This document shows positions 18,594 through 33,660 of a stretch of DNA of 64,000 nucleotides, piece after piece (position 1 is the stretch's first letter; each line of letters opens with the position of its first letter). This stretch comes from SAR86 cluster bacterium AG-422-E19 (GTDB lineage: Bacteria > Pseudomonadota > Gammaproteobacteria > Magnimaribacterales > AG-339-G14): positions 1 to 64,000 of the forward strand of contig QCMR01000001.1 in the NCBI GenBank assembly GCA_003213595.1. Reading direction: 5' to 3'. Under the pieces are notes generated by a model. The model was not told the DNA's origin. It made no database searches and saw nothing but the letters and a program-made list of their open reading frames with translations. A program made the translations under genes and the position numbers.

Positions 18594-19726
18594 TGAAATA
18601 TGATGTCCTCATTGTTGGTGCTGGCGTAACTGGTGCCCTGCTTTTTCTTTCATTGAAGAAAAAAAATATAAATGTCGGTCTAATAGACGGTCGAGATAAA
18701 GCCCCAAATAGTTACCGCCATCTATCATTGAATAACAAAAGTATGACATTTCTAAAAGAGCTAGATGCATGGAATGTCATAAGTAAAAATGCTTTTGAAT
18801 ACAACCAGATAAAGGTTTGGGATCAAGAAGGCACTGGATTCATAGATTTCAATGTAAATGAATTGGAAAAAAATATTCCGAATATTGGCTTCATAGTCAA
18901 AGAAGGAGACATTCAAAATTCTCTGTTATCTCTCGTTTCCGATTCAAAAAATCTTTTGTGGAGTTGTAATTTAGAAAAAATAGAGAAAATTAATGGAGAT
19001 ATTCATTGCGAAACATCAAAGGGAAAATTGGAGACAAAAATTTTAATAGGTGCAGATGGCATTCAATCAAGTGTAAGAAACCTTTCTTCGATTTCATCAA
19101 GAACTTGGAGTTACAATCAGACAGCAATAGTTGCCAACTTTTCTGTACCCCAAACAGACCCATGCATTAGACAAACTTTCACCTCGGTGGGACCGCTTGC
19201 TTTGCTCCCAATGAATGAGACTGAACTTACTATGATATGGTCTATTGACGATACCAAGGGCTATGATTACTTAGGTATGAATGAAGTTGACTTCATAAAT
19301 GAAATTCATCAATCTTTCGGGGAAAAACTTCCAGAAATAAAATTCTCAGCCAAAAGGCAGTCATTTCCTCTAAAACACCTCTCTGCAAAAACTTTTGCAA
19401 GAGGTAATGTTTTTCTTGTTGGAGATGCTGCGCACCATATTCATCCGTTAGCAGGATTGGGATTAAACGCAGGAATCGGTGATGTGAAATCTCTATCGGA
19501 TTTAATTACTCCTGAAAGTTTGCTTCAAGTTAAACAAATTGAAGATAGATATAACAGACAAAGAATTCCAATCAATTTAGCCCTAGCAGCTGCTATGGAA
19601 GCTTTCAAAAGAGGTTTCGAGCAAAAAAATATCTGGATAAGACTCATTAGAAATCATGCTTTTAGTCTTACCAATAAACTAACTTTTCTAAAAAATAAAT
19701 TTATTGAGCTCGCTACTGAGCTTTAG
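18593..19726 (+). CDS. ubiH: FAD-dependent UbiH/UbiF/VisC-family ubiquinone biosynthesis hydroxylase
   Basis: DVLIVGAGVTGALLFLSL GxGxxG, ILIGADGIQSSVR, GNVFLVGDAAHHIHPLAGLGLNAGIGD. Confidence 0.88.
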   Translation: MKYDVLIVGAGVTGALLFLSLKKKNINVGLIDGRDKAPNSYRHLSLNNKSMTFLKELDAWNVISKNAFEYNQIKVWDQEGTGFIDFNVNELEKNIPNIGFIVKEGDIQNSLLSLVSDSKNLLWSCNLEKIEKINGDIHCETSKGKLETKILIGADGIQSSVRNLSSISSRTWSYNQTAIVANFSVPQTDPCIRQTFTSVGPLALLPMNETELTMIWSIDDTKGYDYLGMNEVDFINEIHQSFGEKLPEIKFSAKRQSFPLKHLSAKTFARGNVFLVGDAAHHIHPLAGLGLNAGIGDVKSLSDLITPESLLQVKQIEDRYNRQRIPINLALAAAMEAFKRGFEQKNIWIRLIRNHAFSLTNKLTFLKNKFIELATEL

Positions 19727-20247
19727 TTCTTAATTAATGATTTGGAAAAATCCTCTACTCTTTTCCAGTCGGTAAATTCAAATCTAGCCTTGGCGTCTGT
19801 AGGGCCTTTGGTGATCCACATGATAAGTCTAATCATAAATCTATCGAAAAAATTATATGTTGGGTAATCAACAACGCCAGCAAAAACATCCATTTTGTTT
19901 GGTTTCCATTTTGTTGCTTTGAGAAATTTTGCAACATACGGATTAGTATCGGGAGTATTTTTCTCTGGCTTTCTAGCAACGACATTTACACTAAAAAAAG
20001 CGTTTTCTTTGCTTGAGAGCTCATCAAGGTTTTTTTCAATAAACTCAAAAAGTTCTTTTCGATAGTTACCATATCTGATGCTGGCCCCAATAATAACTTG
20101 TTGATAATTTTTTAAGCTCAGCGATTGAGCATCAACTAATGAAGTTAAGTCAACGTGTACGTGATGCTTGATATGTTCAGCAATTTTGCTCGAGATTTTT
20201 TTAGTATGACCATCTACAGAAGAATATATTACAAGAGTATTTCTCAT
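19723..20247 (-). CDS. hemG: Menaquinone-dependent protoporphyrinogen oxidase, flavodoxin type
   Basis: VIYSSVDGHTKKISSKIAEHI, IIGASIRYGNYRKELFEFI; in heme gene cluster. Confidence 0.9.
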   Translation of the reverse strand: MRNTLVIYSSVDGHTKKISSKIAEHIKHHVHVDLTSLVDAQSLSLKNYQQVIIGASIRYGNYRKELFEFIEKNLDELSSKENAFFSVNVVARKPEKNTPDTNPYVAKFLKATKWKPNKMDVFAGVVDYPTYNFFDRFMIRLIMWITKGPTDAKARFEFTDWKRVEDFSKSLIKN

Positions 20248-20248
20248 C

Positions 20249-21067
20249 TTATTTCCACTTCGCTGACGGCGGCATGGACATCAGGATGGCTTCCGTAGAT
20301 CCTCCTGTTTTTAAACCAAACAAAGTACCTCTATCCCAAATCAAATTGAATTCTACGTAACGCCCTCTTTTGATAAGTTGTTGTTCTTTTTCTTCTTCAG
20401 TCCAGTCTGAGTCTTTTTTGCTAGATACGGTTTCTTTAATAATATTGAGAGTGGTTGAACCAAGCTCTTTTACAAAATCAAAATCATCTTCCCAGTTTCC
20501 GGTATTCAAATGATCAAAAAAAATGCCGCCAACTCCTCTAGGTTCATCTCGATGAGCAAGATAGAAATATTCATCACAATTTTTTTTAAAATCCGAGTAA
20601 TAGTTATTGTCTGATTTATCACATGCTTCTTTTAACTTAGCGTGGAAAAGTTTGGTTTCTTTATCGTCTGGGATTGATGGAGTCATATCTGTTCCGCCTC
20701 CAAACCAATTTTCGCCAGTAGCTAAAAATCGCGTATTGAAATGAAAAGCCGGCACCTTGGGCGATTGCATGTGAGCAACCAAACTGATCCCAGAAGCCCA
20801 ATACTCAGCAGATTTTTCTGTGCCTTTGATTTGGGATTTAAAATCATCAGAAAATTCACCTGCAACAGTTGAAATATTTACCCCAACCTTTTCAAATACC
20901 TCGCCCTTTAGAATGCTTATTTCGCCGCCGCCAGAACCTTTATGATTCCATTTTTTTCTTTCAAACTTTCCGCCATCTAATTCTTCAAAGGCAGTGCAAA
21001 ATTGGTCTCTCAAAGATCTAAACCATTGAGATGCTGAATCTTTTTTTTCATCTAAACTGCTGGTCAT
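20249..21067 (-). CDS. hemF: Oxygen-dependent coproporphyrinogen III oxidase
   Basis: FHFNTRFLATGENWFGGGTDMTPSIP, HRDEPRGVGGIFFDHLN, GRYVEFNLIWDRGTLFGLKTGGSTEAILMSMPPSAKW. Confidence 0.97.
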   Translation of the reverse strand: MTSSLDEKKDSASQWFRSLRDQFCTAFEELDGGKFERKKWNHKGSGGGEISILKGEVFEKVGVNISTVAGEFSDDFKSQIKGTEKSAEYWASGISLVAHMQSPKVPAFHFNTRFLATGENWFGGGTDMTPSIPDDKETKLFHAKLKEACDKSDNNYYSDFKKNCDEYFYLAHRDEPRGVGGIFFDHLNTGNWEDDFDFVKELGSTTLNIIKETVSSKKDSDWTEEEKEQQLIKRGRYVEFNLIWDRGTLFGLKTGGSTEAILMSMPPSAKWK

Positions 21068-22081
21068 AGTTGGGATATTTTATTTGCAATTAAATTATTA
21101 ATGGCTTCCACATGCTCGTCGTTATCATTTAAGCAAGCTATGTAATGGAAAGCCTCACCACCAGAATCTAGGAATATTTCCTTATTTTCTTCATCGATTT
21201 CTTCTATGGTTTCTAAACAATCCATACTAAACCCAGGCGATAAAATTAAGATTTTCTTTACTCCCTCTTCAGGTAATTTTTCCATCAATTCACTTGTATA
21301 AGGTTTTAACCATTCTCTTCCTGCCGCTGCCAATCTCGATTGAAAACTAGTAATGTACTGATTTTCTTCAAGCCCTAAAGCTTCTGCAACCAGGCGAGAA
21401 GTCTTCTGACAAAAACAATGGTAAGGATCTCCCTCATCAAAATATTTTTTTTGGAATGCCGTGATAAGAAAAAACTACCTTGTCTTGTTTTCCATAAAAT
21501 TCATGAGTTTTAATTGTGTTAGCTAATGAATTTATGTACTCAGAATTATCATGGTAGCCGCTCACAAAATGCAAACTAGGAACCCAGCGCCATCTTGAAA
21601 GAATTGCGCTCACCTTATCGAATATTGTTGCAGCAGTTACTGCAGAATATTGAGGAAACAAAGGTAGAAGTAAAATTTTACGACAATTTTTCTCCTTCAA
21701 ACTCAACAAAGCTTTTTCAATGCTTGGATTTCCATAGCGCATGGCTAATTCAAATTCTATAGATTCAGAATTTTCATTCAGGTTTTTTATCTTGCTTAAA
21801 AATCTCTTTGAATAAACCAGCAACGGCGAGCCTTCTTCAAGCCATACTGACTTATAAAGGGCTGCTGATTTTCTTGGTCTAAAAGGCAGAATAAAGAGAT
21901 TAAGTACCAACCACCAGATTATTTTTGGTACTTCTATGACTCTCGTATCTGATAAAAATTCTCTAAGGTATTTTCTTACATCTTTTGTAGAGTAACTATC
22001 TGGCGAACCGAGATTGCAGATAATTACACCAACTTTTTGTTTATCTTCGTGGGAAAAATTCTCTTCGCCTAAAAAACTCAT
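21064..22081 (-). CDS. hemH: Ferrochelatase, reading frame interrupted by +1 frameshift at A8 run (plus-strand T8 at 21445-21452)
   Basis: ORF 21437-22081 encodes N-terminus ending SYHGIPKKIF*; shifted frame continues YFDEGDPYHCFCQKTSRLVAEALGLEENQYITSFQSRLAAAGREWLKPYT... into ORF 21064-21333. Confidence 0.92.
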
Positions 22082-23151
22082 AAATAAGACCTTACTTTTT
22101 TCACAAAATGTTTAACATTTTCTTGGGGTGTGGTCTTGATAACGCCATGACCTAACCCACATACCCATCCTTTTCTATCCTCTATTGAAAGAGAGGAAAC
22201 TTCTTCTAGAAATAAATTTAAAGCTTTATCAAATTCGTTGAAATCCTGAGTGATGATTTTTTCACTAAAATTGCCTTGGATGAACCCATCATTCCTTTTT
22301 GCAAAAATATCTTGAATGCTGACATTTGAATCTACCCCAATTCCTGCAAAAGGAACTTCGAAACTATCAGATGCATCAAAGATATCATCATAAGAAATTC
22401 CGTCTTTTGCATAGTAGCCAACTTGATTTGGAAAAGACTTTACTAACTCATTTAAAACTTTATTGAGGTAAATAGATAAATCATCTTTAGCAAGCTGGTG
22501 TGCACAAGAATCAAAAATCATTACAAGTTCAGCTCCAGCCTGCAATTGCAAAGAAATGTTTTTATGTAAAAGAGGATAGATATACTCTTCCAAAATTGCC
22601 CATTGGTAACTTTCTATTTTTCCAATCTTGTCTAATTTATTTTTAGCTGAGGCAAAAGATAACAATGTCCATGGTCCGCCAATAAAGCCAATCATAGATT
22701 TATCGTCTGGAAGTAATTCCAAAGTTCTTTCTATTGCCTCCCCTTGGAATTCCAAAGAAGAAATAGGATTTTTATTGACAAGGATTCTAGAAGCATTTTC
22801 TTCTAATAGATGTTCTTTGAATATTGGTCCGGGGTCATAAATCAAATCCATACCCAAAGACTCCAAGGGAAAAAGAATGTCGCTGAATAAAATAGCGACA
22901 TCAAAGTCAAATTCTTCTATTGGACCTAAAGCAGTTTGAGCTGACAAGGCTGGAATTTTACAAAGCTCAACGAAAGAGTGAGATTTCTTGAGATTTTGAT
23001 AATGATTATGATATCTGCCAGCTTGACGCATAAACCATATCGGCGGAATTTCCTGAGGAACCCGATTCAAAGCATTTTGAAACCTGGAGTTACGCATATC
23101 AGAAATTATAGATTTTTTGCTATCTCTTTTGCGGCATAAGTTAAGATGCAA
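22078..23151 (-). CDS. hemE: Uroporphyrinogen decarboxylase; likely start ATG at 23097
   Basis: IWFMRQAGRYHNHYQ, DFDVAILFSDILFP, GPWTLLSFA, GLGHGVIKTTP. Confidence 0.95.
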   Translation of the reverse strand: MHLNLCRKRDSKKSIISDMRNSRFQNALNRVPQEIPPIWFMRQAGRYHNHYQNLKKSHSFVELCKIPALSAQTALGPIEEFDFDVAILFSDILFPLESLGMDLIYDPGPIFKEHLLEENASRILVNKNPISSLEFQGEAIERTLELLPDDKSMIGFIGGPWTLLSFASAKNKLDKIGKIESYQWAILEEYIYPLLHKNISLQLQAGAELVMIFDSCAHQLAKDDLSIYLNKVLNELVKSFPNQVGYYAKDGISYDDIFDASDSFEVPFAGIGVDSNVSIQDIFAKRNDGFIQGNFSEKIITQDFNEFDKALNLFLEEVSSLSIEDRKGWVCGLGHGVIKTTPQENVKHFVKKVRSYL

Positions 23152-24101
23152 TCCGCACCAGCTCGCTTAAATGAAAGAAGCGATTCAAATATTACTTCCT
23201 CACTTAGCCAGTTTTTTTCAATTGCAGCCTTCAACATAGCGTATTCTCCGCTTACTTGATAAACAAAGGTTGGCATTTGAAATTTTTCTTTAACTGCCTT
23301 TACAACATCAAGATAAGGCATACCTGGTTTTACCATAACAATATCAGCGCCTTCATTTATATCTAAGGCAACCTCGTGAAGAGCTTCATCAATGTTTGCA
23401 ACAGCCATTTGATAAGAGTCTTTTGTTTTATTTCCAAAAAATTTTGCAGATTCTACTGCTTCTTTAAAAGGACCATAGAACTTAGAACTGTATTTTGCTG
23501 AGTAAGCAAGAATCATAGTATTTATGAAGCCCTTTTCTTCAAGGGCTTTTCTTATGACTCCAACTCTGCCATCCATCATGTCAGATGGAGCAATGATGTC
23601 TGTACCTGCTAGAGCTAGCTTCAATGCCTGATCTTCTAGAATTTTGAGTGTCTCATCGTTGTCAACATCGCCGTCCAAATTTATTACCCCATCATGGCCA
23701 TGAGTTGTGTAAGGATCTAAAGCTACATCAGCAATAACTAAAATTTCAGGAAAATTTTGTTTTATTGTTTTTATGACGTTATTGAGAAAATTATTTTCAT
23801 TTACTGCCTCGGAACCTTTCTCGTCTTTCTTGTCTTCATCTATCACAGGAAAAATGGCTACCGCCTTGATACCTAAACTAACGAGTTCCGCGATTTCTTT
23901 GAGAATACTTTTATCTGAGTGTCTAAAAATTCCAACTAGAGATTCAATTTCTTCTTTTTCTTTTATGGATTCCTTAACAAAAATAGGCTGAATAAGGTCA
24001 TCAATGGATAATTTATTTTCTGCAACAAGATCTCTAATAGATTTATTCGATCGCAGTCTTCTCAGCCTAGAAAGAGGATATTTTCTTTTAAAATTTGCCA
24101 T
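23106..24101 (-). CDS. hemB: Delta-aminolevulinic acid dehydratase (porphobilinogen synthase), non-cysteine (Mg-type) metal site
   Basis: LIQPIFVKE, DVALDPYTTHGHDGV, APSDMMDGRVGVIR, YSAKYSSKFYGPF, VMVKPGMPYLDVV. Confidence 0.97.
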   Translation of the reverse strand: MANFKRKYPLSRLRRLRSNKSIRDLVAENKLSIDDLIQPIFVKESIKEKEEIESLVGIFRHSDKSILKEIAELVSLGIKAVAIFPVIDEDKKDEKGSEAVNENNFLNNVIKTIKQNFPEILVIADVALDPYTTHGHDGVINLDGDVDNDETLKILEDQALKLALAGTDIIAPSDMMDGRVGVIRKALEEKGFINTMILAYSAKYSSKFYGPFKEAVESAKFFGNKTKDSYQMAVANIDEALHEVALDINEGADIVMVKPGMPYLDVVKAVKEKFQMPTFVYQVSGEYAMLKAAIEKNWLSEEVIFESLLSFKRAGADCILTYAAKEIAKNL

Positions 24102-24123: not shown

Positions 24124-25632
24124 TTACTTTGCTTCGTTTACTTTTTCCAGCCAGTCTTCATAGTTTAAAAAAGGCTTTATTTTATTGGGATATAGTTTGT
24201 TCAACTCATCAAAAGTTTTGCCCAAGCCACATGAATGTTCAGCATTTTCAATGCTTGGAAATCTTTTCAAAGCTTCTTTAAATGAACTGATAGACATCCA
24301 ATAGAAATGAGAATATTTGGATAAATCTTCTATCTCTTTTTCAGGCACTAATTTATAAGTTGCAATAAGTTTTTTATCTTTTGATTCTGAATCAACATGA
24401 GAGACCAAAAACCAATTTACCTCCTCAAGTAACGAGCTGGGTTGCGATTGTTCCTCTCCTAGGCTATCTGAAGTCCCATTCACCCATATTCCTTTCCTTG
24501 CTAATTTAAACCAGTTTTCAATGCCGCTTGTCCAAATGACATTTGACAAATCAATTGCTCTAACTTTTTCTATTGAACTTGCTCTTGAGATATACAAACC
24601 AGAATTTTTAATTGCTTCCATTTCTTTTATCCCTTCGTCAACCTTTGATCGGGAAAATAATTTAAAATCCTTTTTTGATTTCGGGTAGAAATCTTCGATT
24701 GGATTTTTGAATCCGGATAATTCTTTCTTGAAAGGAGAAAAAAACCTTTTATCAATGAGTTCATTTTCTGGCGTTAAGCCTTTCTCAGTGGTGATTTTTC
24801 CAAGAGGATGATTTTCTATGCTTACGCCTATTTTTTGATGACAGCCTCCGCCGTATTTTTTGAGTTTTTTTCTTTCCTCTTCTACATCTTTAAAAACATC
24901 TAAATCATTGATTTCATTGAGTAATTCAATTACTTCTTTATTACCTGATTTTATCTCGACAGCTAATGCTCCTTGGCCAGGCGCACAAGGATTTTGTGAA
25001 CAAGGAATTACCATCCACAAAAATTCATCTAAGTCCTTTTTAAAGGAATCTAATTCAGTTGTTATCTCTTCTATGGGGGATAAAAGTCGATCCAAAGCAG
25101 CCTTGGCTATTACCAAACCATCTGCATTTGAATCTTTAAGTTTTTGAACTCTGGTTAAAATATTTCCCCTGATATCACTAAAGCTGAAAGAGTTTATTTC
25201 AAAAGGAAAAGCTTTCTTTAAAAATTTTGATAGATTTTCTTGTCTTCTTGGAGATGACGTATAGATTTCTAATTTTTTCTTTTTGAAGGAACTTTTCTTG
25301 AAGATCAAAACATCTCTTGGATCAGCTCTTTTTATAGTTGCAGCAATTTCTGTCCCTTCTTCAAGATCAACTGGCAGATCTTTCCAGGAGTGAACGGCAA
25401 TATCTGCTTTTCCAGTTAATAATTCTTCTCGGATGTCTGAGGTAAAAACTCCCATTTCAGGCATTTTGTGCAGGGGTGTAGTTAAGTCTATATCGCCAGA
25501 AGTGTCTTTTGTCTTAAAAATAATTTTAATTTCAGGATATTTTTTTTTAATTACCTCAGAGACTTCTATTGCTTGAAGCTTTGCAAGAGAACTTTTTCTA
25601 GAAATGATAGTTAACTCATTCATTATAACCAA
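24124..25632 (-). CDS. hemC: Hydroxymethylbilane synthase with C-terminal uroporphyrinogen-III synthase-like domain (HemC-HemD-like)
   Basis: N-terminal HemC motifs (AVHSWKDLPVDL, TSSPRRQENL, APGQGALAVEI, YGGGCHQKIGV); about 180-aa extra C-terminus with VIWTSGIENWFKL and FYWMSISSFKEAL...CGLGKTFDEL resembling HemD. Confidence 0.88.
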   Translation of the reverse strand: MVIMNELTIISRKSSLAKLQAIEVSEVIKKKYPEIKIIFKTKDTSGDIDLTTPLHKMPEMGVFTSDIREELLTGKADIAVHSWKDLPVDLEEGTEIAATIKRADPRDVLIFKKSSFKKKKLEIYTSSPRRQENLSKFLKKAFPFEINSFSFSDIRGNILTRVQKLKDSNADGLVIAKAALDRLLSPIEEITTELDSFKKDLDEFLWMVIPCSQNPCAPGQGALAVEIKSGNKEVIELLNEINDLDVFKDVEEERKKLKKYGGGCHQKIGVSIENHPLGKITTEKGLTPENELIDKRFFSPFKKELSGFKNPIEDFYPKSKKDFKLFSRSKVDEGIKEMEAIKNSGLYISRASSIEKVRAIDLSNVIWTSGIENWFKLARKGIWVNGTSDSLGEEQSQPSSLLEEVNWFLVSHVDSESKDKKLIATYKLVPEKEIEDLSKYSHFYWMSISSFKEALKRFPSIENAEHSCGLGKTFDELNKLYPNKIKPFLNYEDWLEKVNEAK

Positions 25633-25733: not shown

Positions 25734-26984
25734 ATGAACTACAAAAAATATTTTTCCGATGAGTTGACCTCTTTAAAGTCGCAAGGTCTTTACAGAAAAT
25801 TCAGAGAAATAAATCGAGATAAAAAACATTTCCCAAAAGCCACTGAAAGATTCGAAGGCTCCGAAAGACCTGTTGAAGTCTGGTGCAGTAACGACTACTT
25901 AAATTTGAGCCAACACCCAGAAGTTATAAAAAGATCCATTGAAGTTATTGAAGAATTGGGGACCGGTTCTGGCGGCACAAGAAATATTTCTGGAACTTCG
26001 TCATATCATGCCGACTTGGAAAAAGAGCTTGCCGAACTTCATAATAAAGAATCCAGTCTGATCTTCCCTTCTGCATATACAGCTAACCAGTCCACTCTTT
26101 GGACGCTATGTAAAAAACTTGAAGGTATCGAGGTATTCTCCGATGAACTAAATCACGCTTCTATGATTCAAGGTATCAAAAACGCTAACGTTCCTTGTCA
26201 TATTTTTCGTCACAATGATGTCGATCATCTAAAAGAATTGTTAAATACCTCCAATGCCAGTGTGCCTAAACTCATAGTTTTAGAATCTCTTTATTCTATG
26301 GAAGGTTTGCGATCACCTCTCAAACAAATCGTTTCCTTGGCAAAAGAATTCAACGCTTTAACTTATCTCGATGAAGTTCACTCTGTTGGTCTTTATGGGT
26401 CAGAAGGCAGAGGAATTGCAGAAGAGCAAAACGTTAGCGACGAAATAGACATCATAAACGGTACTTTATCTAAAGCTTTTGGCCAAATGGGTGGCTATGT
26501 TGCTGCCAGTTCCGACATTATTGATTTCATAAGAAGTTTTGCTCCTGGTTTTATCTTTACTTCTTCTGCAAACCCAAGTATTGCAGCTGCTTCTATTAAG
26601 GCCATTGAAGTAGCAAAAAAGTCTGAAAATCTTAGAGAAGACATTAGACAAAATTCTGATTTAATAAGAACTGGGTTAAGAGATTTGGAAATTCCTCATC
26701 TCGACAATGACAGTCACATCATTCCCATTCATCTTGAAGATCCGAGACTGTGTAAAAATGCTGCTAATCTTCTTATCGAAGATCATGGAATTTACATTCA
26801 GCCAGTATTTTACCCAACGGTTCCAAAAGGCGATGAAAGATTTAGAGTTACTATTACACCCAAACACCAATCAGAAGATATCGAGAGGTTCTTATCTTCA
26901 TTAAATCAGGTTTGGGATAAATTAAGTTTAAGAAGAGAAAGCTACGCATCCGGCCAAAAACCTCAAGTTACAAAAATTTACTAA
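25734..26984 (+). CDS. hemA: 5-aminolevulinate synthase (Shemin/C4 pathway)
   Basis: VEVWCSNDYLNLSQHPEV, GTGSGGTRNISGTSSYHADLEKELA, FSDELNHASMIQGIK, YLDEVHSVGLYGSEGRG, INGTLSKAFGQMGGYVA; alpha-oxoamine synthase fold, adjacent to heme genes. Confidence 0.93.
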   Translation: MNYKKYFSDELTSLKSQGLYRKFREINRDKKHFPKATERFEGSERPVEVWCSNDYLNLSQHPEVIKRSIEVIEELGTGSGGTRNISGTSSYHADLEKELAELHNKESSLIFPSAYTANQSTLWTLCKKLEGIEVFSDELNHASMIQGIKNANVPCHIFRHNDVDHLKELLNTSNASVPKLIVLESLYSMEGLRSPLKQIVSLAKEFNALTYLDEVHSVGLYGSEGRGIAEEQNVSDEIDIINGTLSKAFGQMGGYVAASSDIIDFIRSFAPGFIFTSSANPSIAAASIKAIEVAKKSENLREDIRQNSDLIRTGLRDLEIPHLDNDSHIIPIHLEDPRLCKNAANLLIEDHGIYIQPVFYPTVPKGDERFRVTITPKHQSEDIERFLSSLNQVWDKLSLRRESYASGQKPQVTKIY

Positions 26985-27226: not shown

Positions 27227-29371
27227 TTAAAATCTTTTGCTGTAAGAAACTCTTACGTTTTGAGACTCACCTACTGAAACTTGATGGTCAGAGTGAGAAT
27301 GAGGATAATAAGTTTCATCACCTAGGTTTTCAATATTAATCCTTACAACATCGTTTTCACCTGGAGTAATTGTCATTGCCATATCTAACCTAGTGTAATC
27401 AGGTAATAATGGTCCAGATTCCGCATTAATATAGGATTCATCTTGGTATGTTGCTCCAAAGCTAATTGCAAACATGTCGTTAGCTTGGTGTGTATACCAC
27501 AACGAATAAGTGAGCTCAGGTATTTCCTTTGCTGCTCCCGATCCTTTCGATTTAGTAGCATCTACAGAAGCTAAGCCAAATCTAATAGCATTGTTATCAT
27601 TAACTTGGCCGTTAAGAGTTATTTCAAAACCATCGATTTCCAAACCTATTTCTCGTGTTTCTTCGCCAGTTCCATTATCAAAAGCAGTTGCTTTAGTCTG
27701 TTCACCTGTGAAATAAGCTAATGCAAGCGAGAGACCTGAATCAGTGTCATATTTAAAACCTAATTCAGTATTTTCAAAAACATCTGGATCAAACTTGCCA
27801 GAATCTCCTTTAAAAGTCTTATATTGTTCGCCCGAACGAGGTTGAAATGCCTCACTGTAGCTAAAGTATAGCGACATGTTTTCTTGAGGTTTAAAAATTA
27901 ATCCTAAGCGAGGTGAGAAAAGAGAATCTTTTTTCGTTAAGCTTGGATTAGTTCCATTTAAAGCTCCTTTGCCTGTTCCATCAACAGTTATGCCGTACTG
28001 TTTAATTGTAGTTTCAACTTCGTCATAACGACCACCTAGGATCATGTTCCACTGGTCTGCTAAGTCTATGTTCCCTTGAAGATAGAGTGAAGTAACTTCG
28101 ATGTCAGTATCAGATTGGTTGTTCAAATCAGATATATAATCGACATAAGTCACTTGGTCTTGAGTTACGTCTGCATCTGTCAATCCACCTGTTTCAAGCG
28201 TTCGTCTGTTCGTAAGATTTCCATTTGCTACATTAAAATTCATATTTCTGACTGGCATAAAGATTTCATTATCGTCTCTAGTAGAAGAGAAGTAAGTGTT
28301 GTAACGGTGGTTGTTGTTTTCAGTATCAACCATTTCAAAACCTACAGTTAATGTTCCTCGATCAAATTCATTTATGCTGCTTAAAGCAATGATTAAGCTT
28401 TCACGCATAGTTACATCACGATATCCATCCATCTTAGCTCCCATGGAAGCTGTGTAATCAGACACGTACAAGTTTTGATACATTTTTCTGAAATCGTTTG
28501 CAGTAACACTAAAATTAAGTTTTCCAGTATCAGAATAATTGTGATTCAGTGAGCCTTTTAAAATATTTGCTTCAAGCGTTGTTGTATTAAGGTCTTTAGT
28601 ACCAAAAACAATGTCTTTCATAGCATCAATTGGGCTTTTAGTTGCATCATCAGTTGGAATACCTCTATCAACGAATCTTTCGTGATCAGCGTATTCATAA
28701 GACAAATCTATAGTTGTCTCTGAGTCAACTTGAATTTTCATAGTCGGGTTAACACCTACTCTATCTCCACTAAACATGTCTCTGTGATTAGCAAGCGAAT
28801 CAACATGAACGTTTAAACGAAAAGCAACGTTATCGTTGACTATCATATTTCCGTCCATAGCAACGTCTCCGCCACCAAAAGAATCAATACCAGTGTCAAG
28901 AGAGCTAAAGGTTTCGCCAATTTGAGCAGTCTTAGAAACTCTGTTGATTAGACCACCAGTTCCGCCACGACCAAATAAAAGTGCATCACCACCTTTAAGT
29001 ATCTCAACTTGCTCAACGTTGTAAAGAGATCTGTAGTATTGAACGTCGTCTCTTACGCCATCTTGATAGAAGTCTGCAGTTGATCTAACACCTCTGAAGA
29101 CAACAGCATCTCTGTGACCCTCACCCTGAGAAGTATTTACTCCTGGGGTGTATCTAATTAAATCGCCTATTTGCCTGAATCCTTGGTTTCTAATGTCATC
29201 ATCAGTGATAACAGATACTGATTGAGGAACATCCAAAATCGGTACTGGGGGTTTAAGAGAGTTAACTTGATCTTTGTAAAGGACTTTGCCTTTAACCTCA
29301 AGTGTCTCATCTTGCGCATAAACCGCTGAAGTTGTAAAAACTAAAGCGAAAAGAAAAACAATTTTTTTCAT
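27227..29371 (-). CDS. TonB-dependent catecholate-siderophore-type receptor (Fiu/FhuA-like)
   Basis: Signal peptide, PVPILDVPQSVSVITDDDIRNQGFRQIGDLIRYTPGV plug, GRGGTGGLINRVSK, C-terminal VRVSYSKRF; Fur boxes upstream. Confidence 0.93.
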   Translation of the reverse strand: MKKIVFLFALVFTTSAVYAQDETLEVKGKVLYKDQVNSLKPPVPILDVPQSVSVITDDDIRNQGFRQIGDLIRYTPGVNTSQGEGHRDAVVFRGVRSTADFYQDGVRDDVQYYRSLYNVEQVEILKGGDALLFGRGGTGGLINRVSKTAQIGETFSSLDTGIDSFGGGDVAMDGNMIVNDNVAFRLNVHVDSLANHRDMFSGDRVGVNPTMKIQVDSETTIDLSYEYADHERFVDRGIPTDDATKSPIDAMKDIVFGTKDLNTTTLEANILKGSLNHNYSDTGKLNFSVTANDFRKMYQNLYVSDYTASMGAKMDGYRDVTMRESLIIALSSINEFDRGTLTVGFEMVDTENNNHRYNTYFSSTRDDNEIFMPVRNMNFNVANGNLTNRRTLETGGLTDADVTQDQVTYVDYISDLNNQSDTDIEVTSLYLQGNIDLADQWNMILGGRYDEVETTIKQYGITVDGTGKGALNGTNPSLTKKDSLFSPRLGLIFKPQENMSLYFSYSEAFQPRSGEQYKTFKGDSGKFDPDVFENTELGFKYDTDSGLSLALAYFTGEQTKATAFDNGTGEETREIGLEIDGFEITLNGQVNDNNAIRFGLASVDATKSKGSGAAKEIPELTYSLWYTHQANDMFAISFGATYQDESYINAESGPLLPDYTRLDMAMTITPGENDVVRINIENLGDETYYPHSHSDHQVSVGESQNVRVSYSKRF

Positions 29372-29487: not shown

Positions 29488-30378
29488 TTAAGCGTAAAAA
29501 CGTCGCCAGAAAGTAAGTCCAAGCAAAAGAGAAGCCAACCATGCAAAAAGTTCCACATAGTTTGGATTACTGTTGTAACCAAAAAATCCTTTTAAGAATG
29601 CGCCAACGCTTCCACTATCATGCATGATGTGTATGTATTTGCCCTGCCCTTTGATGTTGTAACTATAGAAAAAAGATTGATCATTTTCTCCAAGTTCTTC
29701 TTTGGGCTTTAAAATATCCCAAGGTCTGGATATTTCCTCTTTGCTTTCAAGACCAACCATTTGCAAATTATCGGATTTGACCAAATAACTTTCAATTTCA
29801 TGAGTGCCATAAGCAACCATGCCTGAAGCTAAAAATACCAACAACAATGTTGTCGCTTGGAAGAAAGATCTAATATTGAATCTTTTTCCTTGAATAACAA
29901 AGATATAAACCAAGATCAAAGCGGCGATGATTCCAGTAAAAAACCCTAAATAAGAAAAGCTTTGAGTCATCGAAAAACTAGCTAAAAGGAATACAACCGT
30001 TTCAAAACCCTCTCGAATCACTGAGAAAAAAACCAAAAAGAAAATTCCCCAGGACGAACTCATGGCAATAACTGACTGCTCTTCAAGTTGTTTACGATCA
30101 CTAACATGTTTTGAAAGCCAAAAAATTACATACCAAATAAAGCCTGCAGTTATGAACATAAAAATTCCTTCAAAGAGAGCTTTAAGAGAGTTGTTTCCCA
30201 GAGCCTGTTGCGCTGAAACAATAAAATAAGCGACCAAAATACTGGCAACAATTGATGTTAGAACAGCAAGCCATAGCTTTTGAGTTGAAGCGCCATTACT
30301 GGTTAGGAATAAATAAATTATTCCGACAATTAAGGCAGCTTCCAAAGTTTCTCTAAATAGGATAATAAATTCGTTCAT
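29488..30378 (-). CDS. FTR1/EfeU-family iron permease
   Basis: FRETLEAALIVGIIYLF and VIREGFETVVFLLASF (RExxE-type motifs), multiple TM segments. Confidence 0.9.
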   Translation of the reverse strand: MNEFIILFRETLEAALIVGIIYLFLTSNGASTQKLWLAVLTSIVASILVAYFIVSAQQALGNNSLKALFEGIFMFITAGFIWYVIFWLSKHVSDRKQLEEQSVIAMSSSWGIFFLVFFSVIREGFETVVFLLASFSMTQSFSYLGFFTGIIAALILVYIFVIQGKRFNIRSFFQATTLLLVFLASGMVAYGTHEIESYLVKSDNLQMVGLESKEEISRPWDILKPKEELGENDQSFFYSYNIKGQGKYIHIMHDSGSVGAFLKGFFGYNSNPNYVELFAWLASLLLGLTFWRRFYA

Positions 30379-30543: not shown

Positions 30544-33500
30544 ATGTATAAAAAACTTTTACTTACGGGAGTCCTTCTCTCGTTCTTTTCGGGCTTGAGT
30601 TTTACTCAAGATGAACAAGTTACTGTAATAGGTTCCTTGATTAAAGGTACCCCAATCGATACAGGTTCACCAGTATCAACATTTAATGCTGAAGAAGTTG
30701 CTTCTCAAAATAACTTAAATATTGTTGAGCTTATTAAAATGGTTCCTGGTAGTTCAGGAATGGATGGTGAAGCCAACCAGTTCGGTTCAAATGCTTCTGA
30801 GGGTATTGCTAACGTAAACTTGCGTGGTCTTGGGACCAATAGAACTTTGGTTCTTGTTAACGGCAAAAGACAAGTAACAGTCCCAATCGCGACTGGTGCT
30901 GGAAGGTCCGTTAACTTAAACGATCTACCTATGTCTGCTTTAAGTAGAATAGAAATCCTTAAAGAAGGTGCTGCCGCGACTTATGGTTCTGATGCCATAG
31001 CTGGGGTAGTAAACTTCATCACTGATTCAACTTTTGAAGGATTGAGAGTTAATTTCGGTGCTAAAGGCATATCAGGTGCCGAACAAGATGGTAATGAATT
31101 CTCTATAACCTATGGAACAGCCCTTAATGATGGAACTAACTTTCTTTTATCACTTGGTGCTCAGAAAAAAGGAGAACTTCGTGCAGAAAATACTGAATAC
31201 GTCAGAAGAAGTTTCAAAGAAAATGGCGTTGGTGGTTGGTCGTCTTTCGGTAACCCAGGTACTTTTGTTTTTAAACTAGATGATGGTAATGCTAATACCG
31301 ATGCACCGACTGGCTATGTTGGAGACCCTGGTTGTAATGCTTCTGGTGGTTATGCGCAATTGCTCTCAGCAGATTCAAAAGTAGCCCATAAAAATGCTGC
31401 TGGAGATACTATAAGTGAAACTGACATGGGTGGTTATCACACTTTATGTCGTTACCAGTACGCATACTTTGATAACGTTCAGGAAGAACAAACCAATTCT
31501 CAACTTTGGATGGAATTTAACGGAGACGTAAACGGGGAACATGATTTTCATGTGGAATTTTCTTACGGAAAAACAAACGTTCCTAACTATGCTACATCTC
31601 CTTCTTATCCCCCAAACAATCCTACTGCAACAGTTGTTCCTAACTATCACCCTGGATTGCAAGCTTTGTATACACAACACCCAGCTTTTGCAACTCTATT
31701 AAAAGGATCTGCGTTTGGAGGAGATGGAACTACTCAAAGAGCTGCACATGCAATGTTTGCTAGGCCTTTTGCTACAGCGGGAAATCCAAACGGTGCTTCC
31801 AATGGAGCGGAAAATGAATTTAGAAAGTATGACGTTTACAGATTTGCTTTTGATTTTGAAGGTTCTTTAACTGATGGAATCGAATACAGCACGGGATTGA
31901 ACTATTCACAAAGTGAAGGTAACTATACTTTCTCAGATACACAACAAAATAAATATAATTCTTCGCTATGGGGTTATGGTGGGCCTAACTGTCCATATGA
32001 AATGACTGCGCTTAGCGCGACAGGTGTTCCAACCATGACACACAAAGTTACAGGAGTTAACGCTACTCTTAGCGCAACACCTCCTACTGGTTGTGGTTAC
32101 TTGAACATCTTCTCGAATGCCTTTGAGCAAGGGAACCAAGCATTTTATGATAATAAAAACCCTTTTACTGGAGACAATCAAGTGGGGACTTCTATTAAAG
32201 ATAAAGTTGGTAAAAACCCTCATTATTTAGCAGCTCAAGCTAACGATCCAGATTTTCTTAGATGGTTAGTTGACAGAGGTGAAGTTGAAGCTAAATCTAC
32301 TTTAATGACTGCAGATTTCACCATACAAGGCTCTATGGGCGCCCTATCTGGTGGAGATGCTGCATGGGCTTTTGGTTATGAAAGAAGAGAGTACAATCTT
32401 GAACAATCGCTGCCTTCGAGAGCTGGAACAAAACTTTCACCAACTCACGATATCTTTGACGGAGACAAACATCCTTGTCTATTACCTAAAGACAACAGAG
32501 ATGCTTCTGAAAGAGCTAGCTGTTTAGCTACAAACCCTGCGGGTCTGTTTATGTTCTTAGCTCCTGCTTACGGAAGAGACCAAAGCCAAGAAGTTGATTC
32601 TCTATTTGCTGAATTCGCACTTCCAATTTTGGATAATTTCGACATGCAATTGGCTTTAAGATATGAAGATTATGGCAATGTTGACTCTGTAGATCCTAAA
32701 GTCGTAATGCGTTGGACACCAATTGATGCACTTACTTTAAGGTTTACTGGACAAACTACGTTTAGAGCTCCAAACCCAGATGAAATTTGGGACAAGAGAT
32801 CTACATCACTTGCCTACGTAGCTCAAACCGGTGCGTTTAAAGCAATTGATGCTACTGGTAATCCTAATCTTGAGCCAGAAGAAGCGACTACTTACAACTT
32901 CGGTATCATTACTGACTTTGGTACAGACAATTGGACAGCAACAGTTGACTACTACAACTTTGATTTTGATAACCCAATCATTACCGAAGCATATGCGCAA
33001 ATTGCTGCTGCTTATGCTGCGGGTAAAGCTGCTGGTGCAACAGCTGCCCAAACTGCTGCTTTTAACGCTGTTAAAGGCCAAGTACGAGGTGGACCTAATT
33101 ACCGAACCGATGGTTCTTTTGCAGCTTCTCAAATTGCAAGAATAGAAACTCTCTATGTTAACGGTCCACAAACGGAAACAGATGGGCTTGATATCTATGT
33201 CAAATGGGAAGACGACTATGCTAATGGTGTTTTATCTGCAGGTATGGAAGCAGCTTACGTAATTGATTACAGTGTTGCTGCATACTCTAAAGGTGGTGCT
33301 CAAATAGCTGGTGCTTATGAATGTGCTGGTTACTTCAACATCAATAACACTTGTAGATCTATGCCTGACCTTAAGTCAAAAGCATTTGTGAACTATGTAA
33401 CTGATCAACACAATTTTTATGGTGCCATCAATTATATATCTTCATATGAAGACAGACGTTCAAATGTTGAGATTGCTCCTCATACTACTGTAGATGCTAC

Positions 33501-33660
33501 TTACACTTACAGTTGGGATGACTTCAGCATGTCTTTCTCAGCATATAATCTTACTGATGAACAACCTCCATTTGCTTTATGGGAAATGAGCTATGATCCA
33601 AATACTCACAGTCCATTAGGTAGATACTTTAAAGTAGGTTTTACATACAATATGGAGTAA
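30544..33660 (+). CDS. Large TonB-dependent receptor (1038 aa)
   Basis: Signal peptide, VTVIGSLIKGTPIDTGSPVSTFNAEEV plug, NVNLRGLGTNRTLVLVNGKR, EILKEGAAATYGSDAIAGVVNFIT, C-terminal LGRYFKVGFTYNME. Confidence 0.93.
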   Translation: MYKKLLLTGVLLSFFSGLSFTQDEQVTVIGSLIKGTPIDTGSPVSTFNAEEVASQNNLNIVELIKMVPGSSGMDGEANQFGSNASEGIANVNLRGLGTNRTLVLVNGKRQVTVPIATGAGRSVNLNDLPMSALSRIEILKEGAAATYGSDAIAGVVNFITDSTFEGLRVNFGAKGISGAEQDGNEFSITYGTALNDGTNFLLSLGAQKKGELRAENTEYVRRSFKENGVGGWSSFGNPGTFVFKLDDGNANTDAPTGYVGDPGCNASGGYAQLLSADSKVAHKNAAGDTISETDMGGYHTLCRYQYAYFDNVQEEQTNSQLWMEFNGDVNGEHDFHVEFSYGKTNVPNYATSPSYPPNNPTATVVPNYHPGLQALYTQHPAFATLLKGSAFGGDGTTQRAAHAMFARPFATAGNPNGASNGAENEFRKYDVYRFAFDFEGSLTDGIEYSTGLNYSQSEGNYTFSDTQQNKYNSSLWGYGGPNCPYEMTALSATGVPTMTHKVTGVNATLSATPPTGCGYLNIFSNAFEQGNQAFYDNKNPFTGDNQVGTSIKDKVGKNPHYLAAQANDPDFLRWLVDRGEVEAKSTLMTADFTIQGSMGALSGGDAAWAFGYERREYNLEQSLPSRAGTKLSPTHDIFDGDKHPCLLPKDNRDASERASCLATNPAGLFMFLAPAYGRDQSQEVDSLFAEFALPILDNFDMQLALRYEDYGNVDSVDPKVVMRWTPIDALTLRFTGQTTFRAPNPDEIWDKRSTSLAYVAQTGAFKAIDATGNPNLEPEEATTYNFGIITDFGTDNWTATVDYYNFDFDNPIITEAYAQIAAAYAAGKAAGATAAQTAAFNAVKGQVRGGPNYRTDGSFAASQIARIETLYVNGPQTETDGLDIYVKWEDDYANGVLSAGMEAAYVIDYSVAAYSKGGAQIAGAYECAGYFNINNTCRSMPDLKSKAFVNYVTDQHNFYGAINYISSYEDRRSNVEIAPHTTVDATYTYSWDDFSMSFSAYNLTDEQPPFALWEMSYDPNTHSPLGRYFKVGFTYNME

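Follow-up and report, generated by a model that had tools for sequence, protein, structure and literature searches.

A fused HemC–HemD protein of the Leptospira type probably takes the place of a separate hemD in SAR86 bacteria

Introduction

In Leptospira, HemC and HemD are one enzyme (PMC11426443). Dual HmbS/UroS activity is attributed to the L. interrogans fusion in the passage of PMC8698207 that cites Guegan et al. (2003). Hydroxymethylbilane on which HemD does not act closes spontaneously to isomer I (PMC8698207). A tblastn search of plasmid records led to the L. interrogans protein WP_000086813.1, annotated as 'bifunctional porphobilinogen deaminase/uroporphyrinogen synthase'.

The DNA analysed here (the window) is a stretch of 64,000 nucleotides from SAR86 cluster bacterium AG-422-E19, and it encodes a protein that aligns with WP_000086813.1 from end to end, with 40% identity (209/521, E 2e-114) and with both domains covered. 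Judged by sequence, the SAR86 protein is of the kind already known from Leptospira; the initial annotation had missed both this known type and its spread across phyla. What is new here is the single cross-phylum lineage of the fused enzyme, together with a conserved marine module that alternates between SAR86 families. Among the open-access papers searched, none linked SAR86 to heme biosynthesis or to hemD, and the presence of the enzyme in SAR86 and its cross-phylum distribution seem to be unreported there.

The open reading frame and its HemC part

The gene hemCD (24124..25632, minus strand) encodes 502 aa, read as a fused hydroxymethylbilane synthase/divergent uroporphyrinogen-III synthase. 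The frame opens on TTG, and the in-frame ATG at codon 4 (25621-25623), where the alignment of most relatives begins, is the likelier start. The unusual length that the initial annotation had remarked on is real, the HemC of SAR86 families f3 and f4 having only ~300 aa. Read-through behind hemC, or an assembly artefact, was considered and rejected because the long form is kept at 495-517 aa among the fused relatives, with the frame open in almost all of them.

The HemC part comprises residues 4-~303 (24724..25623, minus strand), as delimited by PF01379, TIGR00212, alignment and fold. PF01379 matches residues 7-235 (3.7e-51, Pfam), and TIGR00212 covers residues 7-274 with 196 bits against a curated cut-off of 164 (NCBIfam). 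PF03900, the C-terminal domain of HemC, gave no Pfam match in the 502-aa protein and stayed sub-threshold in its relatives. The catalytic-type Asp85 in HSWKDLP (codon 25378..25380, minus strand) and the cofactor-type Cys264 in GGGC (24841..24843, minus strand) align with HemC and are both invariant in a 39-sequence alignment; we take them to be the counterparts of the HemC catalytic Asp (E. coli Asp84) and dipyrromethane-cofactor Cys (E. coli Cys242), respectively. The predicted fold aligns with whole PBGD structures across ~300 columns, with TMt up to 0.80. With TIGR00212 above its cut-off and both the Asp and the Cys present, the N-terminal part is classified, by sequence, as HemC. An insert ahead of the GQGA stretch, of about 11 residues relative to Vibrio HemC (~11-20), is common to all aligned fused relatives. 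WMVIPCSQNPC, previously described as an insertion, itself aligns with the conserved HemC stretch preceding (V/P)GQGA; the extra residues do exist, and lie just ahead of it.

The C-terminal domain

Residues ~313-502 (24124..24696, minus strand), about 190 aa, form the HemD-like part, recognised from AlphaFold, Foldseek and profile comparison, with Pfam blank. Residues ~275-502 have no match in Pfam or NCBIfam. PF02602 (HEM4) matched none of 40 fused-family members at E up to 1, so the curated model does not place the fused domain in PF02602; the HemD part of the Leptospira fused protein likewise has no PF02602 match. A sequence search of the PDB with the C-terminal profile gave nothing useful, the only match being a T-cell molecule (E 0.13).

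Comparison of the profile with 42 canonical HemDs nevertheless gave a collinear alignment (P 2.6e-5) that scored 39.3; 100 column shuffles averaged 11.7 and reached at most 21.5, and the profile scored 8.8 when reversed. Against the nine HemDs of SAR86 relatives alone the comparison was weak, with a probability of 6%. Landmarks of the alignment are a VTS-like strand, a G..TA turn (WTSGIENW), Tyr426 and an FTS turn. Invariant Tyr426, in TYKL (codon 24355..24357, minus strand), falls on the Tyr of the 'vYR' strand in canonical HemD, and WMSISS (residues 445-450, 24283..24300, minus strand) is the counterpart of the 'FTS' strand-turn. CGLGKT (residues 468-473, 24214..24231, minus strand), in which both glycines are invariant, is taken for the final 'IGxxT' turn of HemD; this equivalence is weaker, since the profile alignment ends near residue 467 and CGLGKT was placed by eye and by the succession of secondary-structure elements in the AlphaFold model. 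The HemD-like pieces named in the initial annotation are all present, WTSGIENWFKLA starting at residue 367, WMSISSFKEAL at 445 and CGLGKTFDEL at 468. The stretch WVNGTSDSLG (residues 383-392, 24457..24486, minus strand), mostly invariant or nearly so in 40 sequences, is a signature of the fused family. Over these 40 sequences, from at least four phyla, 14 positions of the domain are invariant and a further 7 are nearly so.

HemD consists of two lobes connected by a flexible hinge. The AlphaFold model of the C-terminus, built from 40 sequences, has a pLDDT of 89.2 and a pTM of 0.81. In a Foldseek search of the PDB, the best 11 of 11 matches were uroporphyrinogen-III synthases (prob. 0.99-1.00), among them the Thermus, Pseudomonas and Helicobacter enzymes, with moderate E-values of 3e-4 to 5e-3 and TM-scores of 0.36-0.59; the next match was an unrelated protein (prob. 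0.41). The predicted structure thus has the two-lobed HemD fold. The HemD-like character first proposed from sequence pieces is borne out by this search, and a lack of structural similarity to uroporphyrinogen-III synthase, which would have spoken against it, was not what the search returned. The confident full-length model (pLDDT 91.2, pTM 0.90) suggests that the HemC and HemD parts pack in a defined manner.

Distribution of the fused gene and of separate hemD

A PF02602 search of the whole 1.11-Mb source genome (91% complete) gave no match; applied to 14 control genomes, the same search was positive in 12. The suspected lack of a standalone hemD agrees with this result. A gap in one 91%-complete genome is weak evidence by itself, and it is the recurrence of the absence across many genomes that carries the argument. 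Each HemC found in SAR86 families f1 and f2 is of the long form, and PF02602 is absent from all f1/f2 genomes searched; the single-contig relatives G016 (97% complete) and G040 (95%) have no PF02602 either. HemC of f3 and f4 has ~300 residues, and a PF02602 gene adjoins hemC in most f3/f4 genomes. Two f4 genomes (G042 and G054) yielded neither HemC nor HemD, and six incomplete f1 genomes and two f2 genomes yielded no HemC. PF02602 was present in 58 of the 60 Pseudomonadota genomes sampled. A fused HemC–HemD protein would explain the apparent absence of the usual hemD.

The closest named records are SAR86 cluster bacteria. A contig scan with the C-terminal alignment found 75 loci, spanning SAR86, the PS1/OCS116 clade and other marine Alphaproteobacteria, Marinimicrobia, and Bdellovibrionota (Halobacteriovorax among the last). 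Wherever the upstream sequence of a locus was readable, HemC and the domain form one fused protein; L096 ends at a contig edge, and of two loci that failed the motif filter, L105 was fused on inspection and L108 stands outside the count. No PF02602 was found in 19 of 20 fusion-bearing genomes from Alphaproteobacteria, Marinimicrobia, Bdellovibrionota and SAR86. The exception, a Gammaproteobacteria metagenome bin (G061), carries the fused gene plus separate HemC and HemD. Over 4.8 kb, its fused-gene contig (L079, 8098 bases) shares 81-84% identity with PS1 genomes. The bin was rejected as a true genome with both forms and is most likely contaminated, because this contig is PS1-like and the bin has its own HemC and HemD.

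In a tree of the HemC part, one branch (98/96; recovered in 98% of bootstrap trees) separates the 29 fused rows from the HemCs of f3/f4 SAR86 and those of Pseudomonadota, Bacillota, Fusobacteriota and Actinomycetota. This tree has no root and includes some long rows, and two long branches join within its unfused portion. By this branch (98/96), the fused enzyme is one lineage comprising SAR86, marine Alphaproteobacteria, Marinimicrobia, Bdellovibrionota and Leptospira.

The heme gene cluster and alternation of routes

The rest of the pathway from 5-aminolevulinate (ALA) to heme is encoded in the same cluster. The divergent neighbour of hemCD is 5-aminolevulinate synthase (ALAS; 25734..26984, plus strand; TIGR01821, 548 bits), whose position is conserved. 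On the minus strand follow hemB for porphobilinogen synthase (23106..24101; NF006762, 473 bits); hemE for uroporphyrinogen decarboxylase (22078..23151; TIGR01464, E 5e-59, below the model cut-off), whose product matches the annotated Leptospira uroporphyrinogen decarboxylase; hemH for ferrochelatase, in two frames (21064..22081); hemF for oxygen-dependent coproporphyrinogen oxidase (20249..21067; NF003727, 367 bits); and hemG for menaquinone-dependent protoporphyrinogen IX dehydrogenase (19723..20247; NF008316, 218 bits). The hemH frame breaks at a run of eight A near 21441-21449. It is intact in nearly all relatives, and L047 has the same eight-A run; the frameshift could be a homopolymer sequencing or assembly error, or a real slippage site. 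In a genome of the same genus (G003, C2:274389-275601), ALA synthase appears as two overlapping matches, probably because of another frameshift. Beside the heme cluster, two TonB-dependent-receptor-like proteins (27227-29371, minus strand; 30544-33660, plus strand) and an FTR1-like iron permease-like protein (29488-30378, minus strand) were noticed by eye.

The two pairs of SAR86 families differ in their routes. ALAS is carried by f1/f2, nearly always at an identity of at least 75%, with no glutamyl-tRNA reductase; nearly all f3/f4 genomes have glutamyl-tRNA reductase and lack a close ALAS. One gene order, with ALAS (divergent), hemCD, hemE, often hemH, and hemF, recurs in SAR86, marine Alphaproteobacteria and Marinimicrobia, hemB being variable in position or absent from this stretch. 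No ALAS lies near the fused gene in Bdellovibrionota or Leptospira. This gene-order pattern suggests that an ALAS–hemCD module moved between phyla. A broader reading, which we offer tentatively and at somewhat less than an even chance, is that two SAR86 families swapped their native route (glutamyl-tRNA reductase, separate HemC and HemD) for a portable ALAS–HemCD–HemB–HemE–HemH–HemF module exchanged across phyla of open-ocean plankton, the minimal, separately conserved HemD of which takes hydroxymethylbilane directly from the attached HemC.

Proposed function and alternatives

The gene product is very probably a bifunctional, Leptospira-type HemCD that replaces a separate HemD, catalysis by the C-terminus being deduced from gene context and the Leptospira homologue. 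ALAS and hemB would supply ALA and porphobilinogen, and the N-terminal ~300 residues would condense four porphobilinogens to hydroxymethylbilane. The C-terminal ~190 residues, a shortened and strongly diverged uroporphyrinogen-III synthase, would then convert hydroxymethylbilane, an unstable and linear tetrapyrrole, to uroporphyrinogen III with ring D inverted. This product would be the substrate of HemE, encoded two genes downstream, and hemF, hemG and hemH would act after hemE. A single chain with both activities would keep the second enzyme near the first. Direct transfer of hydroxymethylbilane between the domains, and any benefit from it, is a guess.

Canonical HemD has few conserved residues, and a motif therefore cannot verify a HemD active site. 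The shortness of the domain and the missing canonical HEM4 sequence signals would fit a C-terminus that has the HemD fold but does not close the ring, a structural or regulatory appendage beside an unrecognised enzyme that makes uroporphyrinogen III. Such an appendage is very improbable, given the strong conservation of the domain over at least four phyla at its invariant and nearly invariant positions (14 and 7), the repeated absence of any other HemD (from its own genome, from f1/f2 and from 19 of 20 fusion genomes) and the homology to a Leptospira protein for which dual activity is reported in the passage cited from PMC8698207. An unrelated domain or junk read-through, with hemD hidden in the missing 9% of the genome, could be entertained from the blank Pfam result and the incomplete assembly; it is scarcely credible, because the extension is open and conserved among the fused relatives, G016 and G040 also are without PF02602, and the fold matches HemD only.

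As hemC adjoins hemD in f3/f4 SAR86, a simple deletion could fuse the two native neighbours, and the SAR86 gene might have arisen locally and independently of the Leptospira one. This origin is very unlikely: the 29 fused HemC rows and the f3/f4 HemCs fall on opposite sides of the well-supported branch (98/96), and identity to the Leptospira protein extends over both domains.

SAR86 is a common ocean bacterium, and the carriers of the fused enzyme are abundant marine bacteria. Annotation based on HEM4 would call them hemD-deficient, since the model misses the fused HemD; once the fused family is recognised, a false 'missing step' disappears from SAR86, PS1, Marinimicrobia and Bdellovibrionota genomes, and the family alignment is a basis for a new family model. 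The compact two-enzyme chain offers a test case for the hand-over of unstable hydroxymethylbilane, and two whole heme routes that alternate among SAR86 families make a clear example in which to study pathway replacement.

Comparison with known systems

Compared with canonical HemC (PF01379 plus PF03900, TIGR00212), the fused protein shares the key Asp and Cys, the SSPRR and RGN motifs and the fold, and differs in its ~11-20 residue insert, a third domain unrecognised by PF03900 and the attached HemD part. Its C-terminal domain shares with canonical HemD (PF02602; PDB 3d8t, 1jr2, 4es6, 3re1, 3p9z) the fold and a collinear profile with the VTS/G-TA/Y/FTS pattern. However, it is about 190 aa long instead of ~215-260 aa, is unseen by the HEM4 model and carries WVNGTSDSLG, peculiar to the fused family. 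Relative to the canonical fold, its middle lobe is reduced in the model, with several helices gone. HemD is also joined to a pathway neighbour in CobA–HemD fusions (uroporphyrinogen-III methyltransferase/synthase; annotated for Tsukamurella), although the partner enzyme differs. The HemD within those fusions is of the canonical kind.

The closest system is the Leptospira HemC/HemD, with which the SAR86 protein shares homology over the full length of both domains and the lack of a separate hemD, the one exception (G061) being explained by its PS1-like contig. Domain order and signature stretches are alike, hemB is adjacent and hemE is nearby in both. Leptospira, however, synthesizes ALA from glutamate, and its locus has glutamate-1-semialdehyde aminomutase and a sensor-kinase/response-regulator pair, unlike that of SAR86, in which hemCD is paired with ALA synthase and hemF/hemG/hemH; the linker between HemC and HemD is also longer in Leptospira than in SAR86.
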